NCBI RefSeq assembly: GCF_002775205.1
Contig: NC_036445.1
Location: 6,034,802-6,098,801, forward strand
Direction of reading: 5' to 3'
DNA length: 64,000 nt
Source of the DNA: Xiphophorus maculatus
Taxonomy: Eukaryota > Chordata > Actinopteri > Cyprinodontiformes > Poeciliidae
Made by a program: the position numbers and the translations under genes. Shown piece by piece: positions 2,191-58,500 of the stretch. The notes beneath the pieces are model-generated. The model searched no databases. It worked only from the letters and a program-made list of their open reading frames with translations, and was not told where the DNA came from. Each line of letters opens with the position of its first letter. The first letter of the stretch is position 1.

Positions 2191-5100
2191 GGGAGCTGGC
2201 TGCCAAGCAGCAGGAGACAGGGCCCATGCTGTCTCATACTTCACACTCAGCCATTAAATCCAGCTACTTAGAATGCAGTAACTGTAACTGACTGCAAAAG
2301 ATGGCCACAGGCATCTGAAGCCCTCGGCTAGGCCCTGTCTTTACAATATAGAGATTTAAGTTTATTTGTTCCGTGACTATAAATCCTAAGCTTCGTTTTA
2401 GTTAATAAGCTAAAATGCATTACATTTAACATTTTTTCTGTTTTGTCTTCTTTACTCGCAGAGAAAGTGTCGGACAAAAAGGGATCGTTAGAAAAGGTGA
2501 AAAGTTCTAACAGTATCTCACAAAAGTCCAAAGGGAATTCCAGCCAAGATAAGTAAGTTGGGTTTTTAATTATTATTTTTATTATTATGAGTTTCTTTCA
2601 AAGTGATGGTTGAAGTTTGAAAAACAAATCCCTCCTGCAGTGAATGTAACTCTTATTAGCTATATTTTTAATAAATTGAAGTACTGCAAAGTGAAACGTA
2701 TACCAATTCACCGTACACAGAATACATGCATATATGGCATACTTTTCAGTAAGCTAGCATCTGTGTACAAAACGTGTTTTTACTCAAATCTTGCTCTTGT
2801 TGTTGGTCTTCTGTTGTGTTAAAACTTTGTGAAGAACAGAATTGTTGGTTTTGATTAGCAGTAAGCCATAATCAACTAATTTATCAGTGCAATATAACCA
2901 TTCCATCCCCTTTTTGGATTGAATTACTGAAATAAATCAACTTGAAACCTACATGTTCTGTTTCATAACAAAATGAGAGAGAAACCAAAAAAGCTTTGTT
3001 GTATGCTTTAAATTAGAGCAACCTTTTCTGTACAGCTGCACAGGTGTGCCACTGCCCTGTTATTAAAAAGCCAGTGCAGCACAAAACGGATCAAAGGGCC
3101 AGCCATGACAATAGCACTCTTTTTATGAGCAGTTCAAGTTTGTTTGCAGCTTTATTTAATGCAAATGTGAGTATAAGTTTATAGTTTAGCTCTTAGGTAT
3201 TTGTAATTGTACTTCTTGTCAGTTAATGTGATCTAACAAGGTGTTCAACAGTACTGCTGACTCTTTGGAAACACTACCTTGCATGAAGGTAGTGTTTGTT
3301 TACAATAAATTCCTGGAAAATCACACAGTTCTGATGTAATGTATGTATATATAGTACAATGAAATAGTACTTATAAATTATCTGTTTTTTTTAATGTAAA
3401 ATAGAATGTCTTTGTTAGAAAAAGAGTTGTTCCTGTTAAAGCCTGACCAGGGGCTTTGCTTACCGCTAAACAAGTGTTTTAAATGCAACTGTGCATTTTC
3501 TGGTCAGACTAGCCATTCATCTGTTTGTGAAAACACATCTACCCTGTTGCTCCTTAACGGTCCGTTTTTAACTTGTGTGGTGCAGCCAGAGCATTTCTAG
3601 TCGAGAGGAGCGGGATGATCTGGTGCGCTCCTCCAGCCACACCGCCTCCAACAAAGCTCAGATTCTGGCCATGCCGCAGTTCGGCCTGCGCGACAATCTC
3701 ATCAGGTGTGAGCTGCTGAAAAGTGAGGACTCGTACACCTATCTGGAGAATTTCAGGTATGATCCTCGTTTCAGTCACATCCTGCATTTGTTTGTCGGCT
3801 TTTCCAGGTGAAAGGATTTTGAATTTTAATATTAAGAAAGCTAAATATGTAACTGATTGCAGTTTTCACATTCTAAGTCTTTTGCATCTACATTTATATT
3901 TTGTTTCTAAAAGTATGGTGTGTGGAATTTCCATTTTTAGAAGCTATAAAAAATGACAGAGGCTTTGTGGGTTTGCATTGCTATTTACCAAAGAAGAGCA
4001 AGGCTTTATTAAAAGCACTAGCTGACTATTTTACTATCCTGTGGCTTGGTATGCAGCATCAACTCATTATGAGTTGCATTTAATTGAGTTAGTTTTTCCA
4101 TGCGTTTTATGTAACTGAAGGATTTTTTTTTTTTTACACTGGGCACATTGATTTGTACAATTACCCTACTGCCACCTAGTGGTAGACCTGTCTAACTATT
4201 TTTTTAGACACAAGTGATCTGCTAGGAGCATTGTAGACTGTTGAATGGAAGGAAACCTATCTTAAATCTGGACCTGAAGAGCAAATCTCAGTGGAGATCT
4301 AAATGGAAAGACTCTGCTACTGTGTGTGTTACAATCAAAGTGTCAGCAGACATTGCTGGTGTCCTCTATGTAATACTTCTGGTTTTGTAACCAGATGCAT
4401 TTTTTTCCGCTTTCAAGGTTTCTGTTTAAGTTTAAGTTTCTAGTTTCATACTTACAGTTTCCGTTTGGTGTCTTAGAAGTTTTGAGAAAATGAAAATACT
4501 GCTGTTTGCATGTACAATTAGCCATGTTGTAACTGGATTGCACAAACCCTTGCTTTTTTTATTGATAGTCCGCTGATATTAGCTTGTGTGGGATGCTATA
4601 AAGTTGATAGTCATGTTGGGATTGGCCAAAATGAAGCTGTGACAATAGGAAAACTTGATTAAAAATACCACAGCTTTATGGTGAAATTAGTATGTAATTT
4701 CAACAAGAATCCTAACTGCTGCTAAAATAGTATGACATTTAGTATAACAGTTAAATCACTGTCGTATATAATATATATTTTTATTGTTTTTTCCATCTAT
4801 TTTTTAAACTGCTTAATTTGTGTCTAACCTTTTTGGTTCTGTTTTATTTTTCTTAGTTTGAGAACATTTTCAAACTTTTGAATTTGTCTTTCTTGTGATG
4901 AAAAGCATAGATGGGGGTCTTCTTTCAGCCAGCTGACAGGCAATGCTGCAGTTTTCTGATCCACACAGTTGTAGAGAACTTATGCAGACACTTTTATTTC
5001 TCTCGGCTCTCAATAAAGGGGCTTTGATTAAGCCACAGAAATATGATGTAAGAACATTTTGGAAATTTAGAAATGGCAACTTTTTAAAAACAAAATGTTA

Positions 5101-8100
5101 TGACAGTTTCTCTTATGCATCCTATAGTTGGTTAGAAAGAATTTCAAAGTTTTTCGTCATGAACCACTGTATTACATTGAAACAATACGCTCTGGATAAT
5201 ATGTAATGAATTTTGTTTCACAATTTTAGCTTCCTCATCTGGAAATCAGGCTCAGAAATCCACTAGATTTTCCCATAGACGTAAAAATTCCCAGTCAGAT
5301 TGATCAGATTAAGTTATGATGATTATTATTTTTTCTCTTACAGATTCTTTCTTGGCACATACAATGTGAATGGTCAGACACCAAAGGAGAGCCTCCGTCC
5401 GTGGCTGAGCTGCACTCCAGATCCTCCTGACATTTATTGCTTAGGGTAAGTCATATTCATCCTGCTGGAGAAGAGCTCTGCTTAATCCCGTTGCAAAGAC
5501 CGACATTTCCTGCTCCTTCCTCTGACAGATGCTTGCAACTATCGAACCTGTTTAAGTAAACCACATTCTCACCCACAGATTCCAGCCATGCATACTGATC
5601 CTGCTTACGTTTCTATTTACTGCTTTGCTGTGAAGGGGTGAAAAAGTTTTCTGAACACGAGCAGCTTTGAAACTTTTTTTTTTTTTGCTCTTTTTTTTTT
5701 TTGTAGTTTTCAGGAGCTAGATCTCAGCAAAGAGGCTTTCTTCTTTAGTGACACCCCCAAGGAACTGGAATGGATGAAGGCCGTGTTTGAGGCTTTGCAT
5801 GAAGAAGCTAATTATGCCTTGGTAAGTAGGTTTTTATTTACAGAGCTGGTTTTTATATCATCATGAATTCAGAAGGTTTTAGCTCTGTTTACATGTTGGA
5901 GCCAGTCTCTCAGCATCTATCCTTTTTTGGTTTTATTCGCCAAGTCAGCCCACTTATAAGTTTTAGTTCATTTTAGTTATTATTTCCTCATTTCCCCTTT
6001 CTCAGAGTGCTGACTCTGTCTTGTTAACTTCCTCATTTGTTTGCACCACTAGTTTATTAGTCAGAGCTCAAGAGACATTATAATGAGGTGTTATTTCTCC
6101 CTGTGCACTTGGCTGATCTGCTCCTGACAGTTAAATTCAGCTATAAAATAAACATATTTTTGATTTGTGATTTATGCTGGACTCAATGGGAGTTTCTGTG
6201 CTTTTTTTTGCACATCTGCTTAAAGTTTTCTTCAAATAAGATGCTGATGGAACTAAATGGCTTAAAGCTTAATACTTTTGTATTTTATTTTAGTCATAAA
6301 CAGAGTTAAATAAGTATTCATATTTAATTGTATATGTTAACATATGATTTGTTGCTTCAGGTGAAGTTGATCCGTTTGGTGGGCATCATGCTGATCTTCT
6401 ATGTGAAGAAGGAGCATGCAGAATTCATCTCTGATGTGGAGGCAGAGACTGTGGGCACAGGCATAATGGGAAGGATGGTAAGGATGACTTCTGCAATGCT
6501 CTGCTCAGAAAAACAGGACTTTAAAATAGTGCTTGTTACTGCAGGTAAAAAAAACAACTAGTCTGTTAAATTGGTCTTCTCTCACTCATTTGGAGTGCAC
6601 TAGCTCTAGATTATTGTTGTTGTTAATTCTTGTCCCTTATTCGCAAGGGACAAGAATATGCAAGGGTTTCAATGCAATCGCTTGATCTAAATTTAAATAT
6701 CTGCCTTTATTGGCACTGATCCAGAACTTTTACTTAAACATTTAGTTTCAATCCTGACACAAGTGTTATGTAAGCTACAAACTACATACTGTAAGTACTA
6801 ATGGCTGTACTGCTGCAGTTTTTGAAGCTGTTTTATTTTGTCAATACTGATAATTACATATACAGTAAGTATCAGAATGATCATTTCATTATCAGATGTT
6901 AAATCTATATACTGCATTCTATGTATTGGACGTGACATGGTAAGAGACTTTAAAACATAATGATAACAAAAATATGCTGTTGCGGTCAATTATGTTGTGA
7001 TTTTAGATGTTAGATAGTTTGACAAGTTAAGGAACTAAATTTCCTGTTGAAAGCAATTTCATGTGATGTCATCAAAATAAGTGTGACCAAACTGAAGAAT
7101 GAGGAAATGCAGCCAAATACTCTTCTAATCACTACAAATAATGTAGTTAACATGTTAAATGAGGCAGTAGTTCAGATCGTTCTCATCAAAAAGATTTTTT
7201 CATTTTATTTTAGACTGCCAAATTCTTTTTCCTTGTATTAATCTTTTATCCTTCACAGGGAAACAAAGGGGCTGTTTCGATCCGTTTTCGCTTCCACAAC
7301 TCTGATATCTGCGTAGTCAACTCTCACCTCGCTGCGCATGTTGAAGAGTACGAAAGACGTAATCAGGACTTCAAGGACATTTGTAGTCGTCTCCAGTTTC
7401 GGCAGCTCGATCCTACACAGCCTCCACTCACCATCTTGAAGCACAAGTGTGTACTTCCTTTATGATTCTACATTGTTACACTGTACTGTAATTAGAATGT
7501 TGGTGCATCAAACAGGTTTATCATTATGAATATGGAATGATAGTCTGATGTGCGATCATGTCTTTGTTATAAATATGTCTGTGCTTCTTGGATCAGTGTT
7601 GTTTTGTGGATCGGGGACCTCAACTACAGAATCAGTGACCTGGACGTCGACAGTGTGAAAGATCTAATCTCTAAGAATGATTTTGAGACGCTTCACTCTT
7701 ATGATCAGGTAATTACTGACAATCTATTATCTTAATGTTCCTGACTTATCATTTGTGTTTATGAGTGGAGATATTCATTTGCTTCATGTGACCCTCAGCT
7801 CAAGAGGCAGATCGATGTGGAGGCTGTGTTTGTCGGCTTTAAGGAAGGAGAAATTGATTTCCAGCCCACCTACAAATATGACACCGGCTCCGATAAATGG
7901 GATACAAGGTATTTCTAACTGCTTTTTTCTTTATGAATCTATATTTTTAATAGATCCACACTGTTTGTAATAAAAGATTGAAGACTTGCAGAGAGATTAG
8001 TAGAACACAAACTATTCAATTTATCCTGGAAACATGTCTCACATACATTTCATTTGATTCTTTGAACGTTTTAGTCTTTAGAGGTTTCTTACATCATCCT

Positions 8101-11100
8101 AGTTTATGCAGCATCTCCATGTGGTTTTGAGTGTTCACAAAAAGAGATCCACTTGTTGATCCATTGTTTATTCAGCATTATTATTTTATCAGAAAACCGG
8201 TAAAGTCCAATTTGCTCTGATGTCCTTGTTATATTCATTTGACCTCCTGGATTACACTGTTTATAAAAAATATGTATAAATATGCCTTGATGACTAGGCA
8301 TCACCAAGTATCACTAACACTAACATTTCAGTGCTTATTTAACAATAACAAATTGTAAAATGAAATTCCTGATTTCTGTGTTTTACCACAAGTAATAAGA
8401 TAGACCAATTTGCAAATATTGTCCATTTTATTCCTCTGATTTCAGTGAAAAATGCCGCATCCCTGCATGGTGTGACCGTATCTTGTGGAAAGGCAAGAAC
8501 ATTCAGCAGAACCATTACAAGAGCCATATGGATGTAAGGACCAGTGACCACAAACCTGTCAGCTCTTTGCTCATCATCGGGGTAAATGCTTCAGTCTTCT
8601 AACAAATCTCATGTTTAATTCATTGTCTTTGGTTTGGACAAGATCCACTAACCTCAATATTTGACAGGCATGTTAGATATGTAAAATTACTTTAAGATTT
8701 TGCCTTGTCCTTCAAACTCTTATATTTGAATTCAGCTTCTTTCTGAAGATGAGAAATAGATTTATTAAAAAAAAGACATGACTCAGCTGAAAAGTACCAA
8801 AGAAAGTTAAGGTTAAGAGGCAGCAGTTCATAAATCCTATGATGCACAAATGCAGTTATTACAATTACATTTTAGGGAGAGTCATATAATAAAAGTTTCA
8901 CAAGTACTGACCTGCTTGGATCGCTTATTATTCTCTTTAATCTTTAATATTTTTCTTAATTACTAAGGCTGCCCTTTAATGCTACTATCCCACACATTTA
9001 ACTTTTTTAACTTCTTCTTTGTCTCCCTTCCCTTCATCAGATCAAGAGAGTAAATCCTGAAGCTTATAAGAAGACCTTTGAAGAGATTGTGCGCAATATA
9101 GACAAAATGGAGAATGAATGTATTCCATCTTTAAGCTTGTCCAAGCGGGAGGTAAAATTTCCTATCCTGTAATTTGTAGTTCAATAGAAATCGGTTTATT
9201 TGTATACATTTTCAGAGTTAAATATACTTTTTGTTTTAACACACTTTGTGTAAACAACATAGAACGATGTTATATTTTGACTCTGATTTTGTTTTCCTTC
9301 AGTTCCACTTCAAGGACGTGAAGTTCATGCAACACCACGCTGAGACCCTGAACCTTTTCAATGATGGGCAGGTCCCATGTCAGTTTGAATTCATCCAGAA
9401 GCCGAATGAATCCACGTACTCCAAGCCCTGGCTCACAGCCAACCCATCCAAAGGCTTCATTGCACAAGGTGAGGATCCTGAACATTGAAACTTAACTTGG
9501 ATCCTCAAACGTTGCATCATGGCTGCTGCCACAAATCTCCTAATGTTGTATATACATCTCTTATTTTCTAGGTGCTTCTATGGACATTGACCTGGAGGTC
9601 TTTGTAAACCGCACAACGGCACCAGATCTAAACTGCGGCAAGCAGGAGATTGAAGATATTTTGGTACTTCATTTGGAGCGAGGCAAGGACTACTTCATCT
9701 CCGTAACAGGGAACTATTTGCCAAGCTGCTACGGTACTTCGATCTATTCACTGTGCCACATGAAAGAACCAATTCAAGACATGCCGAAAGAGACCCTTCT
9801 TGAGCTGGTCAGCCACTTTTGAAATATCTTCTTTCATTTCTTGTCATCTCTTTTTTTAAAGTTTCGAACAAACGTGTCTTTTTCTTCTGAACATCAGGCA
9901 GAAAAGTCTCCAAACGATGATACAGCAACCGATGAAAAGCCTCTTGACATTCCTAAAGAACTCTGGATGATGGTGGATCACTTATTTCGCAATGCTGTCG
10001 ATCAGGTGAGAAAAGATTTGGATTTACAAAGTTTGCTGTTAGATTTGACATCTGTGTATCCAAGCTGCAGAAATCTGCAAAGGTTAAAAATTTCTGGGAA
10101 TAAAGTGCATGCTTTCAGCATTGCTCCTGAGTTGCATAATATAGAAGGTTTTTGCACATTTAAAATTTCCTAACAAAAAAAAGAAAAATCTTAGTTTTTT
10201 CAATTAAAGTTGTAAAAAATATATTCATTGGGTAAAAAATAAAGCGCTTGTATAGAGAGGATTTCACATTGACCCATATTGGAATGGATTTTACTTTTTT
10301 TTTACTATTAATATTCTTTCTTATTATTGGGTTTAGTTTGAAATTATTTCATTAGATAACAGTGTATATCTTAAAGTATATAATTCTAAAATTAGAAGGC
10401 CTTCCTTAAATTAAAATAAAGGTTTAAGTTTTTGATTTCTCCTGAGGCTACATAGAGGCTAATATGATTAAGTAATTATGCCCTGCAGCTTGTAGGAAGT
10501 CGGAGTAGATTTAAGTAAGGAGTTGCATCTATATTTCATTTTTTAAGCCTTCATTCAGAAACTTTTTTTTATTTAGGTCAGACACAATAAATCATTTATG
10601 TATGTGGTCCTAAGGGAAACCAAATGTAGTCTTTCCATTTACAGGAAGACTTATTTCAGCAACCTGGACTTCGGACTGAATTTGCTGAAATACGAGATTG
10701 TCTTGATTCAGGAATGCCGGATTCTCTTCGTATCCTTTCAAAAAAGATTGATTAGTTTTAAAAAAGTGAAACACTGAAATATTTGAAAAGCTTTGTTATG
10801 GTCTTTGTATACTTTTGCTACTCTTACTAAAGATTTACAAATGTAAATACTCCATATCTGTGTTGAATTTTAATTACATTTATTTCAGAGTGAAATAAAA
10901 CTCTTTGAAACTACTGAAAGTTCATGAAGCTCTCTGTCACCACATTGCCTTTGTTTTTTTAAATTGCAGACACCACAGAGTTGTTTCTGTGATACAAAAA
11001 TAGTTAGTCTTCAGTATATTTCACACAAGAATTGTTTCCTTGACTTTGTCAACCTGTAGCCGGTAGTAACCATTCAGTGGCAGAAGCCCTTCTTCTCTTC

Positions 11101-11584
11101 TTAGATGCCCTCCCAGAGCCTGTGATTCCCTTTCCTTTTTACCAGCAGTGCCTTGAATGCAGCTCCAGTGCAGGCCAGTGTGAGAAAGTAAGGAAAAACA
11201 TCACAGCAATCTTTTTTTCTGATGTTGGGGAATAAAAACCTAAATGTTCCGTTGACACTAACTTTCTTTTCCTTGTTCAGGTTATTTCCATGCTACCTCA
11301 GTTCCATAAAAATGTGTTCAACTATTTAGCAGCCTTTCTCCGTGAGCTCTTAAAGAATTCTGCGAACAATCGATTAGAAGTTGCCATTTTGGGTAAGAAA
11401 ATGAATGCAATTATTTTGGTTCTTTTTATGTTTAACAGGAATCATCCTTCTGTGTGCTACAAATAATGAATTCTCTTTGTTCACAGCCACTATTTTTGCC
11501 TCCTTGCTCCTGAGGTCGCCTACGAAGCAGGATTTTGCAGAAAAAAGGAAAACACAGGAGTTCTTTCAGCATTTCCTAACCTAA
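2191..11584 (+). CDS. inpp5b: Inositol polyphosphate 5-phosphatase B (INPP5B/OCRL family), 5'-partial, 18 exons
   Basis: Removes the 5-phosphate from PI(4,5)P2 and related phosphoinositides on Golgi, endosomal and ciliary membranes. Exons: 2191-2277 (tentative), 2462-2552, 3586-3756, 5344-5445, 5707-5821, 6361-6477, 7259-7446, 7597-7708, 7799-7908, 8446-8581, 9041-9151, 9303-9468, 9572-9807, 9898-10005, 10645-10729, 11060-11187, 11281-11392, 11487-11584; all phases join, giving about 756 residues. Catalytic motifs are [54 protein letters not shown] and SDHKPV. An ASH domain follows (FEFIQKP to GNYLPSC), then a RhoGAP-like domain ([39 protein letters not shown]). It is called INPP5B rather than OCRL because mtf1, yrdc and maneal follow as in human 1p34.3, and because no clathrin box is seen in the RhoGAP part. 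Oddities: a U12-type intron 15, a GTCAGC donor after 9807, and a C-terminus (QHFLT) without the CaaX box of mammalian INPP5B. The PH domain is off the window. Confidence 0.95.
3269..3297. repeat. Perfect 12-bp-stem hairpin in inpp5b intron
   Basis: The arms AAACACTACCTT and AAGGTAGTGTTT are exact reverse complements separated by GCATG. It lies in the intron between exons 2462-2552 and 3586-3756. Nothing ties it to a known RNA class; it could be the centre of a decayed fold-back transposon. Confidence 0.6.
4171..4182 (+). promoter_or_regulatory. Candidate CTCF core site
   Basis: The 12-mer GCCACCTAGTGG fits the reverse-complement CTCF core (GCCMYCTRSTGG). It lies in an inpp5b intron. A second match in the same orientation occurs at 51308. 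A motif match alone does not show binding. Confidence 0.35.
6626..6657. repeat. Perfect 13-bp-stem inverted repeat
   Basis: ATTCTTGTCCCTT and AAGGGACAAGAAT flank a six-base loop (ATTCGC) in the inpp5b intron after exon 6361-6477. The match is exact. The function is unknown; it may be the core of an old foldback element. Confidence 0.6.
10730..11059 (+). other. inpp5b: U12-type (minor spliceosome) intron of inpp5b
   Basis: The intron begins GTATCCTTT, the canonical U12 5' splice site (RTATCCTTT). It contains TTCCTTGAC at 11036-11044, an exact U12 branch-point consensus (TTCCTTRAC). The presumed branch A at 11043 is 16 nt before the terminal AG, and no long polypyrimidine tract precedes that AG. 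The exon junction joins ...MPDSL to [10 protein letters not shown] in phase 1, inside the start of the RhoGAP-like domain. All other introns in the window that I checked have U2-type donors. Confidence 0.88.
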
Positions 11585-12200: not shown

Positions 12201-15200
12201 GCATAAATTAAAGTTATATACAGAATATAATTATTTATGAGTCAAATGAATAGAAGAAAAATATTTAATGAAAAAACCCAAAAGCTGTCTCTTCAGTCTT
12301 CACTGGAGCCGCTGTAATACAGACTGCTGCAGGAGATGCCTGCTGCCCACAGCCATCAGCATCTACATCTCACTGGAGAACATAAGAGTTACATTTTATG
12401 TCCTCCTACGATTAATAAAGTATTTTTGTGTATGACATGTAAAGATGATTTGATCCAATGAAATCCACGCTGAATATGCAGGGTTTTGTTGCACTTACAT
12501 AAAATAACATTTAATTTGTTGCCAAATTAATAGTGAAAGTTAATTTCTGCTGGCATATCCTGTGTGGGAAGGATATAACTTTTTATTTTTGCTCTTTGGA
12601 AATTATTTTATGATCGAGTTATATATGTAGTTTCCCATAATTCATCACAAATAGCTATGATCTGTGACGTTGTTTGGCATCCCCGTGCTGGGAGGAGATA
12701 GGAAGAAAGTGCTTGCCATCCTGAGCTTAGGGACAGGGCTCACGTTTTGAAAGGTAAATATGTATGTTGTTGTCATTTCCTTGTACCAGCTAAACTTTGC
12801 CATTGGTGTGTCGTCTTGTCGTTTTAACATCATTTAACCATTTATCTGCACAGCACGGTCGGTACGAGATGTCAACTGTCGACATTAGCGATGCTAGCTA
12901 ATACTTTAGCTTAGCCGTGAGCTAAAGAGTTGCTGCCTAGCACATCTATGTCTGATGTGAAATATGTAGTTGACACAGCTTGCGCAATGCTAACATACTA
13001 GCATCTATTAATTGACTTTTAACTCCCGAGTTATCGAGAAAATTAGAATCGTGTTTGTTTATAGTGGAGTTATTACACGTGGAAAACGCACAAATGCGCT
13101 AAATTGAGTAATAAAACGGAGGAACGCTGTAAATAAATTGAGATATCAGGTTTGTCTTAGCTACTTATAGAGTTTGCTAACTAACGGTGTTTGGCTAACA
13201 ACCTTAGTTCTGACATTTGGAGAAATCAAGGAAATTGCATTGTCAAACTTTTGAACAGTTGTGGCTGCTGGTGAGATTTCCAAATGTTTATATTTAGCTA
13301 ACATTTTACTCGTTTGCTTGCGAAAATAGTTGATTCTACTTGTCATGAGAAATGGACATCGAAACGAAGGTTCAAAGTAATTGCATTTTGGGGATTGTAA
13401 TGAGGTTTAGTACACTGTAAATCGTTTTTAGTTGTGTCCAGTCCCTGTTTGAATTGTTACCCAACTGGCTCTAGAAAGTTCTAGACTTTGATTTGACTGT
13501 CTACGTTTCTGTAAAATCAGCTAAACTCACTCTAGAGATGCTGTAGGGAAAATGCATTTGCCTCCTTACAGATTTCTCCTGTTTCTCCAACGTTTCATTT
13601 CTTAAAAGAAATTGTATTATTACACAACAATATCACGAGAGTGCACAGTGCTTTGGGTATTACAGCTAGAAACGACAGCTCCAAATTTAGGTGTTGTGAT
13701 GGACTCAGTCCTGAACTTTCATTGACCTATATACAAAGTCAACCTCAGCTGGAGAAAACTTCTAGGATTAAAAGAATAATGTCTCAATAAGATCTTGAGA
13801 AACTCATGCATGTGTTTATCTTTAGTAAATTGCTTACAGCTACAGTGTCTTCAAAGGACTGCCTAAAAAATCAGACAAGCTGCAGTTGATCCACAGCGCT
13901 GCTGCTTACGCTCTCACTAAAACTATTAAAAAGGAGAACAAGTTTTAAAGTCATTACACTGGCTCATTGTAGCTCAGAGAAAAGATTTCAAAATACTTTA
14001 GTTTGTTTATAAACCACGGGATGAAACAGAACCAAACACGGAAAAGCAGCATTCAGTTTTTATGCTCCACTAATCACTTTGAAATGCCTTGCTGCTGAAA
14101 TGTGCTATACAAATAAAATTTGATTGATTGATTGATTGATTGACTAATCTGGAAGAAACTTCCAGAAATCTGCAAAAAAAAAAAAAAATGCCAGTGCTCT
14201 GAGTTACTTTAATCAAGGCTAAAAAGTCAGTTGTTTAGAGTCGCATTTGGCTGTTTTGTTTATACTACTAACTGAAATGTCATTCATTATAATCTGCGGC
14301 TAAAAAGTTGGGCTGCAACATTTTACCTGTGACCCAACCACTGTGCATTGATCCACTATGTGCGGTGGTATAATTGCAATTATTGACAGAATGAATTCTA
14401 CTTTTCAGCAGAAATCTAGGTAGAGAATCTCTATCCATCACATCCTGACCTTAAGCTCCAGCATATTTTTTTTGTGACGCTGTTGAACAACAATCCGAGG
14501 CATAGCAGCAAGTTAACTTCTGGATGGCTCAAAAAATAGTAAAGATGAATAATAATGATAGTAAAAATAATATTTTGGAGAAGCCTCTCAAGAATCTTGA
14601 TGAAATTGATCTAAACTTAAGCAATTCTGTAGGGAAGAGTGTTCCAAAATTTGCAATTTCTAATCTATTGCAAGTTATTGCAAACAGTTAATAACAGACA
14701 ATTACTAGGTTAGTGGGGGGATTTATAATTTTTCTTTCTACATAATTTGGTTTGGATAGCATTTTTGCCCATAATAAATTATCACAATTTGAAGTCTATT
14801 TTTTTATTATCTTTGTCTGATTTTGACATTTGCTATATGATCCAAAATATTTGAGTGTGACTCAAAACTAAAGCAGAAAAATACAAGGACACAAACTTTT
14901 TCACACCCCAGTGTTTCCACCAGCGAGCTTCTGCCTCCTGCTACTTGAATTGCAATTATTTAATCGGCTCCTCTGTCTCTTCCAAAACAACTTCTATGTT
15001 TACTGTTTCATGTTTCAAGTATTTCCAATGGTAAAGATGAAATGTATTTTTGTCTCAAAGCCAAATGTTCTCTCTCACTGTTTTTAGTAGTGAAATTGTC
15101 ATATTTAGCTGTAACAAATGTGATATTTTGATCATTTAGAAGGGCTATTACAAGTGCCATGTGTTTTGGCTGGGTTTTAATGATTCTGGTGTCCTTTCAA

Positions 15201-16510: not shown

Positions 16511-27134
<10,624 letters not shown>

Positions 27135-31986: not shown

Positions 31987-34900
31987 ATGTTAGTGGAATA
32001 TCCGGCGTGTGTTTCAGTTCAGCTTGATTTTATGCGTTCGTTTGGATTTGTCGCTGCTGGGTTGATCAAATATAGAGGATCTCACTGTTCAGCGGTCGCT
32101 GGTCGACTCGGAACCGAAATGTGTAAAGAACCGAAGACTAAACTGCTCCGCTTGTACCCGCCAACCTCCAACGGGCCGACGGTTCATCGAGAGACCCAAA
32201 CAGGTACCTACTCGGAATAAAAGAGTATCCCAGTCAGTTTATATAAATTGTAGATGTAGCTGAGCAGGGGAGAGTTTAACTAACACACATACTTTTGACC
32301 AAAAAACACGTTAGCTTTCTGAAAGTGTTGCTAACTTTGATTTTATTTTTTTTTTATCTAATGGACCCTTTTCAGTCAAGCATTGCGAAGGCAAAGTGAA
32401 TTAAAGATGAAATCTCTGTCTTACCATAATATTGGAAAATGGAAATAACTTTTTAAGCAATAACTGTGTCCAGTCTGTTGTTTCCATGTTTAGTTTAGTT
32501 TGAATGTTATGCCATTCTCACGGTGACCATATTGCTAAGGTTTCACGGCGTCAGAGTATTCACAAACATTTTAGACAAAAATATATACTCAGTGGTCACT
32601 TTGTTAGTTACTTGTTGGTGTGGTGTCATCACTCTGTTGCTGTTTAGCATATATAGGCAGCACAGCTACTGCAGAACACTGTGAACCTACTGTCACGTTC
32701 AAGAAACCGGTTTGCTATGATTTGAGCTTTGTGACTCATGTAGGGATGGAGATGGTGAGCAGAAATGCTCAAATAGAATACATAATGTATCTTAAAGGAT
32801 AGTAATGTCCTTTAAACTTTGGGTTTCAAATTGTTCCAAGAAAAATCTCCCGAAACAATTATGCAACCACCAGCATAAACCATGGACACAAGGCAGGCTG
32901 GATCTGCGGTTTCATGTTGTTTTTATGGCAACCTTTGACTATCATTTGATCATCAGAGGAGTCCATGTTTTTCCAATCCGCTGTTGTCTAATTTTGTTGA
33001 GTCTGTGTGAATTTTACACAATGTGATCGGCTGCTGTCACCCATCTGCTTTAAGTACATTTCAGTAACAGGCAATTCAAGATGCTTTACCGGACGAAAAC
33101 ATAAAACAAGAAACTTTACATTTTCTTAAATGTTGACATAAAAATCATCATAGAATATTGTAAAGAAAACTACAATTAATCTACAATCAAAGGCAACTCT
33201 GAACAAGTGATTTTCCAGTCTTATTTGAAGAAACTCATGGCTCCAGCAGTTTTGCATTGTACATCCCCATATGTGTATGTAATTGTTTGTTTCATCTTGT
33301 TATCTCTTCTTAGGTTTATATATTCATCTTTAATGTCTGTATGCTGTGAACGTGTGAAACTGAAGTCAAATTCTCTGTTTGTGCACACTATCTTGGCCAT
33401 TAAACTGGAACTGGTTCTGATTCCCATTCAGGCCAAACTGGATGTAGCAGGGGAATTGCTATAAAAAGTGTAGGTGCAACTTGCTATAGGATAACTAATC
33501 AAAAACTGTAGGGGTGGTTATGTATATATTTTTCAATGACAGTTAATATAATGATACATCTTTTACTGAAGAAAAGATCAAAAGATGGATCAATGCACCC
33601 ATAAAGGCCCAAAAAATGTATTTATTAATGCCAGTTACAAACAAAAGTAAACTTTTCATCAGAGCTGTAGATCATGCTATTGATTATATCTGCTTACGGT
33701 TTTGTTTCCTCTCAGATGACTCTGAAATCCTGAGCTGCACAGTGAAAGCTCTGAAAGACGGTCACATTGTTGCAGTGCCGACAGACACTATCTACGGTCT
33801 GGCGTGTTTGGCCCAAAACTCTGAGGCCGTCAAAAAAATCTACGAAGTGAAAGAACGGAACGGACAGAAGCCGCTGGCGATCTGTGTTGGAGAAATTCAG
33901 GATATCTATCAGTGAGTGTGCTGATCTCAGTTCTGATTAGTCTCTGACTTAGGAGAGTCCTTTAATTCTCTCTTTTGGACTCATGAAATCACTGCATGTT
34001 CTGTTTAGTTATTAAAGAAGTAGGGAACCACTAACCTCTTGTTTCCTGAGTAGGTACTGTAAGGTGAAGGTGAAAGAGGATCTTCTAGGTGATTTACTGC
34101 CTGGTCCCGTCACTCTTGTGTTTGAAAGATCTGAAAAGCTGAATACAAATCTCAATCCTTTTACTTCAGTAAGTCTTCTTCTTTAGTTGGACAAGCATTT
34201 AAATAAAATCCCAAGTGATGTGTCCTTGTAGGCTGTCAGCTGTTATTGTTTTGTCCTTTAGCTTGTAGGCGTTCGTATTCCTGATCATGCCTTTATGAGG
34301 CGCCTCTGCCAGATGTGTGGGGAACCATTGGCACTGACAAGTGCCAACATCAGCTCAAATACCAGCACAGTGGAAGTACATGTAAGTCTCAGAAACATTG
34401 TTTTTTGAATCATGTGCAGCATTTGGTAAGCTGAATATGGCTGTTTTCCTGTTAAAGGAGTTTCAGGAGCTCTGGTCAAAACTAGCTGTGGTGGTGGATG
34501 GAGGACCAATAGGAGACCAGACCCGGCAGGGGTCAACTGTGATTGATCTGTCGATACTAGATAAATACAGAGTCATCAGATCAGGCTGGTAAGTTTTTGT
34601 TGTTGTTGTTGTTTTTTGATTAAGTATTGCTGTTTGAAGTTTTGTTCACTACTACCACATTCTCTACTCAAAGTTTAGATTTTTCTGTAGAGGGATAGGG
34701 TTGTCACATTTATTGGCACCCTTAATATTTGCTTCCTTTTACCAAGTGCTCCCCACTCTGCTAACATTTAGCCCATCACAGACATAATACATAGACAGTC
34801 AGAAGTCAGGGAAGCAGAAGTGATGATCTGCAGAAATTGAATGAAGTGAAATGGTCAACTTCAATGTTGACAGTACAACATTGACAACAGGGATAATAAT

Positions 34901-39519: not shown

Positions 39520-42500
39520 TCACATCAGCCACTGCTGCTTCTCTTTATTGAACTGCTCGGCCCAGCGGCGGGTCAGTTCCAGATAGTGTTCAGGTCCATG
39601 TGGCTGATAGTCCAAGTACACACGGGTCACGGTTTTCTTAGGCATGGCCCTCTCTATCTGCGTCCCTTCATGCCATTCGTTAAAAGACGTGATGGTGACG
39701 ATCTCCGGCCTCACGTTGAGTGCCGCCTGCAGAGCCGTCTCATAGTAGCGACCGTTCACCCTGTTGCGAGTGTTGTGGTTGTTCCAAGGTCGAATGCTGG
39801 TGTCGATGTAACCCGGCCCAACGCTGGGGATGAAAAGGAGGTTGTTCCCGTCACAGAAGGCCTTAATGGCCTTCCAGTTCTGGTGGGAGGAGCCGAAGGA
39901 GAAGCCGTTGGAGGCGAAGTAAGTGTACATTCCATCGAAGCCACCTGCCAGGATGTCATGCTTGTGACGCTCCTCAACAATCAGAGCGATGAACATGGAG
40001 TCGTATGGGGAGCCGCGCACACTGTGGGAGCCGGTGGGAGTCAAAAATTCAGACCAGGACTCTGGTGGAGTCAGATAGGAGTCATAGATGTAGAAGAGAG
40101 GAAGACTCTTCCCTGTGCTGGAGGTGAACTTGTAGAAGGCCCCATGATCACCGTACCTTCAGAGACGAGGATGTGACAAAAACATCAGCAAGGCAATTTA
40201 TTTCAGTAATTTAATTCAAAAAGTCAAACATTACGCACAGAGTGATACATTTCAAGCATTTCTGTTGCAGTTTACAGCAAATAAAAGCCCTGAGGTCAGT
40301 TAGAATATTACATAAGATTACAAATGATTTTTCTAAATTGTCAGCCGTCGATGAAAACGCGTCGATGTTGTTATTACAACTCAATGCTAAGTCTGGGCTC
40401 CATTTGCATGAATTACCGCAACAGTGTGGTAAATCATCAAACTGGCTGTGCTGAGGTTTATTTAATAGTGACCTTCAGTTCGTCTGCATTATTGGCTCTG
40501 CTGTCTCTCCCTGTTGAATACTTCATTCTCTGGATTTTAGGCAAAGTGATTTTGTGGGCAAATTAAGCAGATTGTGGCCATTTAACTAGATATTGGTACA
40601 TATGGCATTGTAGAAAGGTGCCAGATACTTTTGCCCATGTATTGATTTTATCAGTTTGAGGTGCTTCTTGAAGCAAGTAGAACACGCTTTGTGATTCTCC
40701 ACAATTTTTGAAAGGGTTTTCCTTCATCCTCCTCAAAAGGCTTTGATTATCTCCCTTGCATGTGCACCTCACCTTTGTTTCTATACCACACCTTCTGTTT
40801 CCATGCAACTTTCCTGTAGTTTGCCTAAATACAGAATTCTGTGAATTACTAACTTCTTCAGCAATTATCTTTTGAGGCTTGAACTCTTTGTAAAGGCTGT
40901 CACTAAATATCTACTGAACAACTTTTACATCAGTTCCCCATGCTGATGAAGTGTGATGAATCTTTGGATTGCTTTTAGTGATTCTAAGTGCTTTAATGCA
41001 AAGAGCTATATTGTCAGATGATAGAAATGTCTGCTGTTATTTGAAACATTAATATTCGCCTTCAGTGACAGAGTAGTAAAGACTACTTTACAGTTTGTTT
41101 GCCAGCAAATGAAAGTTGTACATTTTTTACCTGACACATCCTCACCAACTTTGGTAAAATATGTCAATTTTCAGCACAACTGTAAGAGTTTGGTTTAAGT
41201 TGGGGGCTTTGAATTAAGAGTGTACTTTATGCACACTTTTCCTTATGCCCTCTTTGATACTAAAAGATTGAAAAGAAAACTGCTTTCATATCAAGAACCC
41301 ATTTATAAGTCATGAACCTGGCCTTATATAATCTAGAAAAACAACCTAAAAGTCTTTCTATGTTTTGACCCTTGTTCCCTCAGCCATGCATGCAAATCTA
41401 ATGGATTTCTGTTTGAGTTGCATCAGTGATGAAGCGCAGCCAGACAAGCACCTACCTGTCAATTATGTACTTGATGTTGTCGTGCAAAGTCTGGTCATTT
41501 CTTCCTCTGTAGGGTTGGATCTGAAATGCAACCTGAAAAAAAGCACACGAGAGAATACATATTGTGTTTTAACTGATATCACAGTCCAAACTTTTGCCAA
41601 TATCTAAGTGATCCTTAGATAGCTAACCTTTTTGAGCATAGGGCTAAAAGTAATGTATTACTGAGGTTAAGCAGAAATAACTCAGTACAAGGCTTTTAAA
41701 GTCAAATTTTATTGAATGTAATCAGACTTAGAAATCCTTTTACCACTGCTTTTTCCTCAAAACAAAGTTACGATTTTGCCCCAAGTTAAAAAAGCATAAA
41801 GAACATTCGCTTCATGTTGCCTTCTAGCATATTATAGCATTTTTGTGGCAATAATTCCAAAAAGAAAATAACTACTAACTGAACTCCTGTGCTTTCATGT
41901 CAAATTCCCCAACAATGTATACATCTATTTTTTTATCCTGTGCAGAACCCCCTGGGAAGGCCTCTGAGACACTTCCGTGTTTTAAGAGAAACATCAATTT
42001 TCAGTTAATGGCAAAGTAAAAAGCTGTGATATTACAAAAGAACTGACATGGCGTGTACACAAAAGGTGCTAAAGCTGAATATTTTAAAAGGAGGAGTGAA
42101 AATTCTGTGAGTTTGATGATGCATAATTCAGATTGAAACACCACTTTAAAAGCAGTGAAAATCCACAGAGAACAATGTGAGGAGAAAAATGGCCTTTTAA
42201 AATGACAGCAGCGACTAAATGGATGTCATGAAGGGAGCTCAGTGAGAAAGCTGGGCTCAGCCTTAAGTACCGTGGAGCGTCTAGTACATCATTGGTGTTA
42301 TATCAGATGTAATCTTTGCTAGATTTTGAAGCACATCACTGTTGTTTGGCACAGTGGGAGACTGTATTACAAATATGGAGCACTTCTGGGAACCACTGTC
42401 AACATGGCATTCATCATAAGTCCACTAAGAAACTAAGCGGATGTTTGCACAGTGCCTTAAAAAGTATCTTTCACACAAAATGATATCCAGTTTTGAAGCT

Positions 42501-48500: not shown

Positions 48501-50622
48501 GTACTTTATAGCTACTACATTGGTCACTGGCGTCAGACAGGAACTGGCACGTCAGATATGCAAATAATAATAAATTAAAGTTATTACAGTACAACACTCT
48601 CTCATATGTATGTGTATAAGCAATGTGGCTATTCCTATTCATTTTCGCTGTCGACATTGATGTGGCAGAATATCATTTATCAGCTCAAGCGGAAGTGTTA
48701 ATAGTTTGACTTATGTTTCTAATTAATTGGGCTGTTTTAACTAAGCATTAGCAGCCAGCCCTCCACTGGTCCATCTGTTAAAGTGATGAGCTTTCAGAGG
48801 ATTGTATGAAGGGCTCATCAGTCCGGATGGTGTACAATAACCCAGTGAGCCGCGGGACAGAAACATCAGGGTCTGTCACGTGTAGCCTAACGCACGAGTC
48901 TGTTACTTGACACCCTGCAGCAGACCTCAGATGTCTTTTAGAGTCGGAGAAGCTTTTGGAAAGGCAACAACATGTACGCATTTATAATTTATGACACTTT
49001 TCAAGAAGTACTTGAAGTTCACAACACTGGAGACACTGGATCTGGCTGATAATTTAATACTTTGTATCATTTTACTGCTGATGGATTCTTTTTATTTTAC
49101 TTTTCAAGCGAGGCTATTTACAGTGCCTTGTAAAAACATGCAGGCATTGGGCTTCACATTTTGTCACTGTGCAAACACAAACTTCAAGACATTTTATTGG
49201 GATTTATTGTGACAGCCAAAAATACACAATGTTGTGATGTTGAAAAAAAATGATCGATGTGTTTTTCACTAATAGAAATTTTCCGTTTGGCATGGACTTG
49301 TATTTAGTCCCTAAAGTCAATACTTTGTAGACTCACCTTTGTGATTAGAGCTTTTTATCTTTTACGGTTCGACTGAAGTCCTGCCTCAGGTTCAGCTGGA
49401 TTTATGTCTGAACTTAGTCCTCATCTAACATGACTATTCTTCCATCTAAATCTCATTGTATCTCTGGTTGTTGGTTTAAAATTGTTCCCCTATTTGAAGA
49501 CAAATTTCTGCCGTATCTTTTTTGACGTCTCTAACAGGTTGTCTTCTGAATATCCCTGTTTTTTGGTTTATCTTCTCATCAACTCTGACCTGCTATGCTC
49601 TGCTGAAGAAAAGCCTCCTACCACCTTGCTGGAGTCAAACTGTTATGAGATTTCAAAAGCCAGTGGAGGACGAGACTTGGTCAAAACCGAGCTGCAGCAT
49701 TTTGTTCCAGCTGTGAGCAATTTGAGATTTTCAAAGTTTGGTCGTTAGTTTTCTAAGCAAACTATTTTTTATATTTGACCTTTCTGGTCCCTTTTATGTT
49801 CCTTGTAATGATGTTTACTCCTCAATGTTCTCTACCAAACCTCTGAAGTCTTTATAGAAGAGTTGTATATGTCTAAAAAATAAAATCCCAATAAAATACA
49901 TTGATGTTTTGGAATGTAACATGGCGAAAATAGTGAAGCAGTTAAGAAATACGGACACTTTTGCACTTCATTGTAAATCCTTGAGAGCAATAAGCGCAGG
50001 AATAGATCGACTGAGAGTTTGCGGAGCTGTCCAGTCTATTTGTGGTGCTGAAAACTGTTCAGCGTACTATCAGACTTGTAAAGAGAAACTCCAAACCAAA
50101 CGAGGGAGCATCACGGAGCTGCATACCTGCCGCGGAGGCTCCGATCTGCTCCATGTGGGACTCCAACACGTCCGGATCCCGGGAGCTGTACGAATTCAGC
50201 TCCGGGTAGAAACTGGAGGCGATGTCCTCGGGCGGCATGTGTTTTCCTCTCGGGTAGCTGGATGCGACCTTGGGGTCCCAGTGTGGGACCAGGATGTGGT
50301 CCCAGTGGATGTATTTCCCGTCCATATGAGGGCTGCCGTACCAAGTGTAGTAAAAGATGTGGACATCGTAGAATATTGTCCCCTCTGGACCAGAGTTGGA
50401 CAGAACTGCTTTTGTGTTTCCCCCTTGCGGGCGGGCTTGGACTGGGGACGCGGTGGCTTCCCGGGACATCCTCCCTCCTAAGATCGGCAAGAGCTCCAAG
50501 CCAGGAGCCAGATCTGAGAATCCGTCAGTAGGTTTCAGGGTCCTCAGTCCCATCAGAGACCCGAAAATGAAGAGGGTGAAAAGAAACAGGGCAACGCAAG
50601 CCTTCCTCCGCAGCCTTGCCAT
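39520..50622 (-). CDS. maneal: Glycoprotein endo-alpha-1,2-mannosidase-like protein (GH99)
   Basis: Type II Golgi membrane protein of glycoside hydrolase family 99, related to MANEA, which removes glucosylated mannose from N-glycans by an endo cut; MANEAL's own activity is less well established. Minus-strand exons: 50622-50127, 47788-47679, 41532-41456, 40156-39520; 1,320 nt, 439 aa (human about 457), phases consistent. Residues 8-26 form the signal-anchor. A variable stem follows, then GH99 motifs: IFYYTWYGSP, YIHWDHILVPHWDPK, SSFYPELNSYSSRDP, VLVLSWYPPG, FIPSVGPGYIDTSIRPWNNHNTR and FNEWHEGTQIE, whose Glu388 and Glu391 correspond to the paired catalytic glutamates of GH99. It ends RRWAEQF...QQWLM as in vertebrate MANEAL. 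The start (MARLRRKAC, context ACCATGG) matches the vertebrate N-terminus; the open frame upstream adds 12 non-conserved residues. Confidence 0.97.
40590..40870 (-). mobile_element. Mariner/Tc1-type relic in maneal intron 3
   Basis: Read on the minus strand, 'gataatcaaagccttttgaggaggatgaaggaaaaccc' followed by 'ttcaaaaattgtggagaatcacaaag' resembles the fish mariner text encoding LxRxxKENPF ('...aggatcattcaggaaaacccattcaagaatttggg...cacaaggag'). It is heavily decayed; identification is by recall of the family consensus only. Confidence 0.45.
42905..43175 (+). mobile_element. Internally deleted Tc1-like element in maneal intron 2
   Basis: The blocks 'aacgatccaaagcataccagcaagtcc', 'agactcattgccagttatcc...gcttgatagcagttg' and 'ggggcaaattactttttcaaactgggcc' occur in the order found at the 3' end of a common fish Tc1-type transposon (catalytic DNDPKHTSKS region, then the ...RLIASYRKRLIAVV C-terminus and the GCAATTACTTTTTCACACAGGGCC terminus). 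Middle sequence is missing and the frame is broken. Confidence 0.7.
44340..44545. other. GC-rich block inside maneal intron 2
   Basis: A pyrimidine/C-rich run (44340-44440) is followed by CpG-containing sequence around GGCGCCGGTTCGAGCTGAGG. It stands out sharply from the AT-rich intron. No exon of a known gene is recognised; open frames exist on both strands but have low-complexity Pro/Ser composition. It may be a regulatory element or CpG islet. Confidence 0.35.
45004..45041. repeat. Perfect 38-bp palindrome
   Basis: ACTTTGGTGTGAGTTAGTA is followed immediately by its exact reverse complement, with no spacer, in maneal intron 2. No TIR or TSD of a known family was recognised, though a foldback origin is likely. 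Confidence 0.85.
48030..48110 (+). mobile_element. Tc1-like terminal fragment
   Basis: GAGCCTTGCAAAAGTATTCG and TACCTCTTCAAATTTTCC match the 'gtgccttgcaaaagtattcatacccctt' terminus of the fish Tc1 family. Only the end is retained, in maneal intron 1. Confidence 0.65.
49118..49640 (-). mobile_element. Tc1-like transposon, 5' half on plus strand reads as antisense transposase
   Basis: It starts CAGTGCCTTGTAAAAACATG and continues with 'cttcacattttgtcac', 'aacttcaagacattttattgggat', 'agtcaatactttgtag', 'tctctaacaggttgtcttct' and 'catcaactctgacc...ctgctgaagaaaagc'. These blocks follow, in order, the terminal repeat and reverse-complement transposase text of a common teleost Tc1 element. It is missing its far half and has many frame breaks, within maneal intron 1. 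Confidence 0.75.
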
Positions 50623-51214
50623 GGTTGGTAAGGGTTGCATGGGATGAAAACGGCGCAAATATACCAGTTTTCAGGTGAAGCACAACTAAGAATCTGCAAA
50701 CAACTCTCTGTAAGTGTCCCGATAGAAATTCTGCTGAACTATGCATGGCTGCAGTTCGATCGCAGCAGACAGCCTGGCGCATTTGTTTGGGAGATATTTA
50801 ACTTTCTTTTGCTCCCCTTCTCTCTCATTTTGCTAATCTGGATCAGGAGCGTCAAAAATAATAACAAGAAGACAAAATCACCCTTCAAAAACAGACAGCG
50901 CTCATGTTTCCTCTTGCTCTGAGCTCCAGCAGCAGCGGCTCCATTCGCCTAACATCCAACACATGACCGGTGTCCCACAGCAGCAGTGATGCTGCACAGT
51001 GTCGCGTTTGAAAGCCTCTGTGGTTGGCTGCTTTTTGTTTACAGTTTCTATTTTGGACGCCAAAGGGGCGTGGCCTGGCTCGTCATGCTTTAGCCTCAGC
51101 CTCCTTTGCTGCACACCCAGGACATCGCATCAGCATTTAAAGACGAGAAGGAAACAAAACAGCTGAGGATAAAGGTTTAAAAGTATATGCAGTTGTTGAC
51201 AAAAAATTTTTTGT

Positions 51215-55555: not shown

Positions 55556-58500
55556 ATGGCAGAAGGTAAACCTGAACGTCGGGATGCTTTTTGCAGAGTT
55601 TTATCTTTAAAGCGTGCTCGGAGTGCCTTATGGAGGGGCAGGGTTTTGGTTGCATTGTTTGGAATGTTATTGGGGTGTGAGGTAGTGGAAGTGGAGGTGG
55701 TGGTGGAGATTCTTCAGCAAAAATTCTCCCCCTCCCCACTTCTCATTGTTGAGCAGAGGAGGGGGGGATAGGTTGCCAGCCCCCTTTTGTTTACCTCCCT
55801 CTCCCGCTTTCCCTCTCGCTGCGCAGCTTCTGCTTTTCGCAGCATTTTGCATGAAAGTGGCAGTCTGTGCGGATTACCCAGCTTGAGGGCTACAAATAAA
55901 AAAAAAAAGAAAGAAAATATTGTATCTTGGGTGCTAATTTTTGACTCAAGGCTGAGGCAGAAGACATGGGTTCCGTTTCTAACCAGGAGTTCCCAGGTGG
56001 AGTAAACTTCATGAGCAGCACGTTAATGTTCCGAGTTAATTAAGCTGTTTTCGGATCGACTGTCTCACTGATTGTAAAGGAGAGTTTTAGGGCATTGTTC
56101 GCACACGTGACGAGCATTGCACTCAAATTTGACCCTTTAAATAGTTGCATTTTCTGAAAGTTTTGTGCACATTTGAATGCAAGTTTTACGCATATTTTTT
56201 TTTTTTTTAAAAAGTTTTGCGCGTGTTTCTTGAACAATATTGTGCAACTGCTGGTTTTTAAATCGAACATATTTACTGAAGCCTCAGCATGGCGTGCTCA
56301 GTCATTGATTCGTATCGATTACCGATCCGCAGAAATTAACATTTTTAAATTTACAGCTTTCCTTTTTGTTGGTTAAAGCCGGGAGAGTTTTTTTTTTTTT
56401 GTTGTTGTTGTTGTTGTTGTAATTTTTATATTTGGAACTTAAGAGTGAACAAATGTTGAATTTGCAGGAGTGTGCAAGACTGAGGGAGATGAGGGACCGA
56501 GCACAGAGGAAGACACGCAGTCCTTCCACGGGGTCGGGGTGTGCAAGTGGTTCAACGTCCGCATGGGCTTCGGGTTCCTGTCCATGACCAACAGAGAGGG
56601 AGTGCCGCTGGATGAACCGGTTGATGTGTTTGTCCATCAGGTAGGTCTGGCCGCTCTTCCTGCAGAATCCCAACAAAGAAGTTCCAGACTCCTCTTTTCT
56701 TTTCTTCTGGTCATTTTTAGCTCGTTGATCATTCGTTATTTCTCACTCGTTACTCGTTTCTAATTTAACACAGTTAGTTTGAGTGTCTTAATTTTTGTTC
56801 TTTTAGTTCTTGCAGCAATTGATTGTAAAGTTTTGAAAAGAGACACGTTTAGATGTATAGATTGTAAAATGACTCAGCTTTGCAGTGTAACATGCGGTTG
56901 ATCAAAGGAAAAGACTAATTTACTTGACTTAGATGGATGTTTGTTGTAAGGCGTGGAGTTTTCTTTTGGAAAAAAATGTTTTGTAATATTAGAACATCTC
57001 TTGGCTTTTTTTAGTTAATTTTTTAGAGCAGTAAGAAAAAAAAAAACACGATGGAATCACAAGAGGCACAGGGGCGGATTTAACAGGATGTGAGTTTCTG
57101 GGCTGCAGTTTTGGTGCCCTACTCACAAGTTTCGGTTCAGGTGTTTTGTACAGATCCTAATAACGACCAATGTCATCTCTAAGCAATTTACAAGACTAAA
57201 AGATCCACTTTATATCCATGAATATATTTGGAAATTTGTCCAGTTGTCAGGCTGACAGATGGGAATTGATGTATGTGCAAAACTCTTTGCGAACTTTTTC
57301 ACTGAATTGGTCCCAATGCTGGTTCTAGAGTGATTCTTTAAAAAAAATGGTTTGCTTTTTTCTACAACCCATTATCTGAGTCAGAGCCTCATCTCATCTC
57401 CCTCTAGTTTATGTTTTATTTCAATGTTAGTGGAGGATGGTAGGGCAGAAAATTTGACTACACAAAACAGATTGTTAATTCCTGTAAACTCTTGACTCCT
57501 TATTGCTGCTATAATGTATTTACTTTGTTTCTTTTTTAAACAAAAGAGGGTTGTTTGTGAACACAACCCTAATCAATGGATCGCTAGTACCAGCAGCATA
57601 AAAAATGGGATAAGAGCAATATTTACAGCATGCTTTACATAACACAGTGTTAAAGAAACTAGTTGGTAATTACATTTATCAAATCAGTGGAAAACATCAG
57701 CATGAATGCAGGTCAGAAATCTACTTTAGCTCTGTGATGAGTGACATAAAAACAAACAGTGGTAAGATTGATTGTCTTGAGATGATGTGTTGTGACCTGG
57801 TTCTATATAAATAAACTGAACTGAAATTGCTTGTGTTTCTCCAATATTAATCTGACATTTTTTCTGAATAATGTTGCTTAGTGTTATTTTGAATTGGATC
57901 AATGCAAAAACAAAGCCCTGGAGTTTTAAACATGGTGCCTTTTGATTGGCTGCTGGTCTCCATGAGTCTTGATCTAACTTCTGATGAAAGAGGTTCTTCT
58001 GTCCCGACTCAGACTTGGTACTGTAAAAGATCATTTATTTGTGTTAGTTTATCAGGAGCAGCAGGGACTGATGCCACGCAAGAATCAAACATCAGCTTAG
58101 CAGCAAAACCAGTTTGGTGGAGAAGTAAAATTGTGCACAGCACTGAACACATCATTCCCAATGAGAAACAGGATGGTAGCAGCATTATGCTGTGGAGATG
58201 CTTTTATTCAGCGTGGACAGGGGAGCCGGTTTGAGTTGATAAGAAGATAGTTTTAGAGAAAAGCTGGAAAATCTTGGAAGAAAACCTGCTAGAGGCTGCA
58301 AAATATTGGGGCAGGACAACAACCCTAAACACAAATAAAGCTGTAATAGAATGGTTTACATCAAAGTGTGTGTGTTAGAATGGTTTGATCAAATTCCTAT
58401 TTGATCTTAATTATAATACAGCACAGTCAAAGTCAGTTAATCATATAATGTTAGGCTAAGTAAGCTGGGCCCATTGCATTGAGACTTTACAGAAACAGAG

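Follow-up and report, generated by a model that had tools for sequence, protein, structure and literature searches.

A predicted U12-type intron in the RhoGAP-encoding part of inpp5b and its counterpart at the same codon of ocrl

In minor splicing, the U11 and U12 snRNPs recognize the donor and the branch site jointly, after which U6atac and U4atac act. Published abstracts put U12-type introns at <0.5% of introns and name a defective minor spliceosome as a cause of human disease. The closest described systems for the intron treated here are the vertebrate U12-type GT-AG introns of U12DB, IAOD and MIDB. INPP5B and OCRL, two paralogous phosphatidylinositol 5-phosphatases, take part in cilia formation (excerpts of PMC5143364); a 5' isoform switch is described in PMC9580925.

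The window, which is the whole stretch of 64,000 nucleotides (64 kb) of Xiphophorus maculatus DNA that was analyzed, includes an intron of inpp5b at 10730-11059 that, judged from its sequence, is almost certainly a U12-type (minor) GT-AG intron. It resembles the catalogued vertebrate introns in its donor, its branch site, its phase 1 and the presence of U11 and U12 genes in the same genome, and it is unlike them in that its branch-to-AG distance of 16 nt exceeds the optimum. An intron with a U12-type donor splits the same codon of ocrl in this genome, and human OCRL has an intron at the corresponding place.

The inpp5b gene and the signals of its intron

The modelled gene and the features in and around the intron are as follows.

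3586-11584, + strand: modelled portion of inpp5b, 16 exons with 697 codons and a stop; the 5' exons lie outside the model
10645-10729, + strand: upstream coding exon, 85 nt (28 codons and the first base of a Pro codon), equal in length to human OCRL exon 21
10730-11059, + strand: predicted U12-type GT-AG intron, phase 1, 330 nt, read from sequence
10730-10738, + strand: U12-type 5' splice site GTATCCTTT, 9/9 to the consensus
10753-10755, + strand: in-frame TAG of the retained intron, reached 8 codons in
10894-10899, + strand: AATAAA within the intron, a possible intronic poly(A) signal or a chance occurrence in AT-rich DNA
10968-10969, + strand: U2-like AG behind the T-rich tract TTTGTTTTTTTAAATTGCAG, internal to the predicted U12-type intron
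11036-11044, + strand: U12-type branch site TTCCTTGAC, 9/9, with the branch A at 11043
11058-11059, + strand: 3' splice site AG, the first AG downstream of the branch site
11060-11187, + strand: downstream coding exon, 128 nt, equal in length to human OCRL exon 22

The phosphatase domain of the encoded protein matches human type II 5-phosphatase INPP5B (3mtc) with 527.7 bits and OCRL (4cmn) with 471.6 bits, and Pfam identifies a RhoGAP domain in the C-terminal part (PF00620, 81.4 bits). The reading frame is open through the 16 exons (697 codons). The intron lies in phase 1 within the RhoGAP domain, where it splits a codon for Pro, and the junction of the exons at 10645-10729 and 11060-11187 encodes ...PDSLPGSNHS..., which aligns without a gap to ...PETIPGSNHS... 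of human OCRL; the splice joint is therefore fixed by the protein alignment. When the RhoGAP protein was queried against viral_contigs and genome_contigs, no relatives were confirmed. In the linker ahead of the RhoGAP domain, another inpp5b intron (9808-9897) has the unusual donor GTCAGC.

The intron starts with GTATCCTTTC and ends with CTGTAG at 11059. Its donor matches the U12 consensus [AG]TATCCTTT at 9/9 positions, and the branch consensus TTCCTTRAY is also matched at 9/9 positions close to the 3' splice site. The sequence-only reading had called both signals exact and had placed the branch site at 11036-11044 with its A 16 nt before the AG; re-reading of the sequence bore this out, with the A at 11043 and the intron end at 11059. 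In excerpts of PMC3584512 the optimal distance between branch site and AG is given as 11-13 nt, compared with 16 nt in the window intron and 12 nt in the ocrl intron described below. Across the 64 kb window, the + strand contains a single copy of [AG]TATCCTT (10730) and a single copy of TTCCTT[AG]AC (11036). The - strand also contains one of each, at 12576 and 7034, respectively, with ~5.5 kb between them.

The intron stands apart from the other introns of the gene in several respects. Among the 15 modelled inpp5b introns, only 10730-11059 combines a 9/9 donor with a 9/9 branch site. The other 14 match the U12 donor at 2-6 of 9 positions, and the single 8/9 branch-like match found among them, TTCCTTGTT, does not have the branch A. 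Conversely, the donor at 10730 has 3/9 matches to the U2 donor, the lowest of the 15, versus 6-8 for the other 14, and its Shapiro-Senapathy type score is 44.6 versus at least 72.4. In the fixed register from +5 to +9, CCTTT of this donor pairs 5/5 with AAAGG of the U11 5' end; 0-3 pairs are formed by the others. Free snRNA duplex energies do not separate the window intron from the other 14: a stronger predicted U12 duplex occurs in two of these, and a stronger unconstrained U11 duplex in one. U12-type introns lack a distinct polypyrimidine tract; the 3' end of the window intron is not clearly poor in pyrimidines, which make up 0.69 of the stretch from -20 to -5, compared with 0.62-0.94 in the other inpp5b introns (with some boundaries 1-2 bases off).

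Genes for both recognition snRNAs are present in the genome (704 Mb in 101 contigs). The U11 gene was found with 118.6 bits, and U12 snRNA gave one match (129.8 bits), the 5' region of which carries GAGTAAGGAAA. A second U11-like copy (L016, 1500-1640; 68.5 bits) has a different 3' end and is perhaps a pseudogene.

Elsewhere in the window, neighboring genes lie at 19271-19546, 22181-22420, 33700-33915, 39520-40158, 50059-50670 and 56449-56763, all from a Pfam search save 22181-22420. Their domains include C2H2 zinc fingers (a gene we take to be mtf1), the Sua5/YciO/YrdC domain of yrdc, and, on the - strand, pieces of a glycosyl hydrolase 99 (presumably maneal). A cold-shock domain piece, below the Pfam cut-off, is assumed to belong to lin28. 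The open frames at 21650-21967 and 57893-58234 resemble what we take to be fragments of Tc1-like transposases.

The corresponding introns of ocrl and human OCRL

A search for RhoGAP domains gave 144 matches in the genome, and six places were picked by eye for inspection. One of them, L012 (G000:C23:8911000-8919000, - strand), is ocrl, whose exons are found there by tblastn. The 71 residues encoded by two of its exons score 133.3 bits against human OCRL (2qv2), and 42/71 are identical in inpp5b. Between these exons lies the following feature.

L012 5135-3864, - strand: predicted U12-type intron of ocrl, 1272 nt, phase 1

The flanking exons are 85 and 128 nt long, as in inpp5b, and the same Pro codon is split in the same phase 1. 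The intron begins with GTATCCTTGA and ends with TTTCTCCGTAACTTGTGGTCCAG. Its donor matches the U12 consensus at 8/9 positions, with the core GTATCCTT exact. The putative branch site CTCCGTAAC matches at 7/9 positions, with its last A 12 nt before the intron end; a match of at least 7/9 would turn up by chance in 0.08 of intron tails, so that this branch site alone is weak evidence. Its predicted U12 duplex has a value of -5.0, and a better one (-6.1) is available elsewhere in the last 40 nt of the intron. The ocrl and window introns are thus alike in position, phase, donor core and a U12-like branch site, but differ in length (1272 vs 330 nt), in the completeness of the two signals and in the distance of the branch A from the end. 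The sequence-only reading had pointed to OCRL as a place to look for the orthologous intron, and in ocrl of this same genome a U12-type donor indeed occurs at the same codon and phase.

For human OCRL, exon blocks were derived from the splice-variant coordinates in PMC12142645. Their lengths equal those of the window inpp5b in 10 of 11 cases, including the 85/128/112 blocks around the intron; the sole unequal block, c.1880-2256, differs by 33 nt. Exon 21 corresponds to c.2257-2341, and because the exon blocks are equal in length, intron 21, which follows c.2341, is placed at the position of the inpp5b intron. In Table 2 of PMC12142645, the wild-type c.2341+1 donor has no score (a dash) in GeneSplicer, MaxEntScan or NNsplice, and has an SSF-like score of 45.00. 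Among the 13 distinct donors of that table it alone lacks a MaxEntScan score, and the SSF-like score closest above its own is 69.74; a dash for GeneSplicer only is found at three other donors, and an NNsplice dash at one other. By contrast with these predictors, SpliceAI recognizes the donor (donor loss 0.60). The variant c.2341+1G>C is listed under Lowe syndrome and caused aberrant splicing, the pattern of which could not be assessed by the authors (PMC12142645). In a second published study, the acceptor of intron 21 scored only 0.05 in NNsplice, yet the wild-type minigene was correctly spliced.

Human OCRL intron 21 shares with the window intron its codon and phase (exons of 85/128/112 nt and a gapless protein alignment), a G at +1, and a donor and acceptor that are very weak for predictors in the two papers. 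It differs in belonging to a paralogous gene, and its assignment to the U12 class derives from position and published predictor scores. From its position and these scores, intron 21 may be U12-type: its ends are weak for the predictors and it is nevertheless correctly used, and it is therefore probably of this type. A weak U2 intron is also possible. The near-equality of the Shapiro-Senapathy type score of the window donor (44.6) and the published SSF-like score of the human OCRL donor (45.00) is weak support, as 59 of the 768 donors compatible with the OCRL protein sequence lie no more than 1 unit away. The word U12 is absent from the main texts of both OCRL splicing papers (PMC12142645 and the minigene study), and the c.2341 boundary is not given in excerpts of papers on Lowe syndrome, Dent disease or cataract (PMC8535715, PMC12978871, PMC7889681).

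Class, age and use of the intron

The U12 class of the window intron is supported by the agreement of the signals in its sequence with the modelled gene structure, the presence of U11 and U12 genes and the ocrl intron, and the earlier proposal of a U12-type intron at 10730..11059 in the RhoGAP-encoding part of inpp5b was upheld on these grounds. If the intron were instead of the ordinary U2 type and its likeness to U12 signals accidental, this would agree with its terminal AG and T-rich sequence, with the degeneracy of U2 branch sites, and with the U2-like acceptor inside the intron at 10968-10969. This reading is extremely unlikely, however, as a 9/9 donor with a 9/9 branch site is expected by chance with p ~7e-8 per GT-AG intron (first-order Markov model of the window, with the branch site allowed in 20 positions), the donor has the poorest U2 match of the 15 (3/9), and ocrl has the identical donor core at the corresponding place. 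Chance resemblance to U12 signals was set aside in view of the joint probability and the ocrl paralogue. The notion that the gene in the window might be ocrl, or else a pseudogene, and not a working inpp5b, draws on nothing beyond the mutual similarity of inpp5b and ocrl; given the 697 codons open over 16 exons, the top match to INPP5B (527.7 vs 471.6 bits) and the separate ocrl locus in the genome, its probability is negligible.

Position, phase and class are common to the inpp5b and ocrl introns, which makes common ancestry the simplest reading, and the U12-type intron would most likely be older than the separation of INPP5B and OCRL. A separate gain or conversion in each of the two genes would be compatible with their different intron lengths (330 vs 1272 nt), and the comparison of the two introns is confined to their signals. 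On the other hand, codon, phase and flanking exon lengths are the same in both genes, as they are in human OCRL by exon lengths, and excerpts of PMC7367187 argue that class conversion is likely one-way, from U12 to U2. Separate origins are accordingly regarded as very unlikely, and an ancestral U12-type intron is preferred.

In inpp5b, U11/U12 would recognize the donor and the branch site (minor spliceosome after excerpts of PMC3584512), and the minor spliceosome would join the two exons of the RhoGAP domain. Full-length INPP5B would then depend on the minor spliceosome, as the sequence-only reading had suggested. If the intron is retained, translation continues as RILSKKID* and stops after 8 codons, upstream of two more exon junctions. 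Because the stop at 10753-10755 lies well upstream of these junctions, the intron-retaining transcript would be expected to undergo decay; any that escaped would give a phosphatase protein lacking the greater part of the RhoGAP domain. Splicing from the 10730 donor to the internal AG at 10968-10969 also leads to a frame that hits a stop. Slow splicing could permit intronic polyadenylation at the AATAAA of 10894-10899, a motif that may equally reflect chance in AT-rich DNA.

Bearing on INPP5B, OCRL and Lowe syndrome

No link of INPP5B to U12 introns or the minor spliceosome was found in the main texts of the papers searched, and catalogues and supplements may list the intron. INPP5B and OCRL are both absent from the main texts of the minor-intron papers PMC6717393, PMC9501576 and PMC6865273. 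In PMC13216214, also on minor introns, OCRL is absent and the sole INPP5 match is INPP5E in a reference; the passages of PMC8819188 and PMC9715561 treat no U12 intron of OCRL. U12-type introns are a known class, and genome-wide catalogues may already include those of inpp5b and ocrl. The interest of the present intron lies in its common position in INPP5B and OCRL and in the Lowe syndrome variant at that position.

INPP5B and OCRL are regarded as able to stand in for one another. If both genes carry the same minor intron, a single splicing defect would strike INPP5B and OCRL at once, and if OCRL intron 21 is U12-type, the Lowe variant c.2341+1G>C would strike a minor splice site. We lean slightly toward a broader proposal: that both INPP5B and OCRL, in humans too, may keep an ancient U12-type intron in their RhoGAP-encoding parts, that c.2341+1G>C would be an unrecognized minor-splice-site mutation, and that the problems of cilia, eyes, brain and kidneys in minor-spliceosome diseases may arise in part through the joint loss of both phosphatases.
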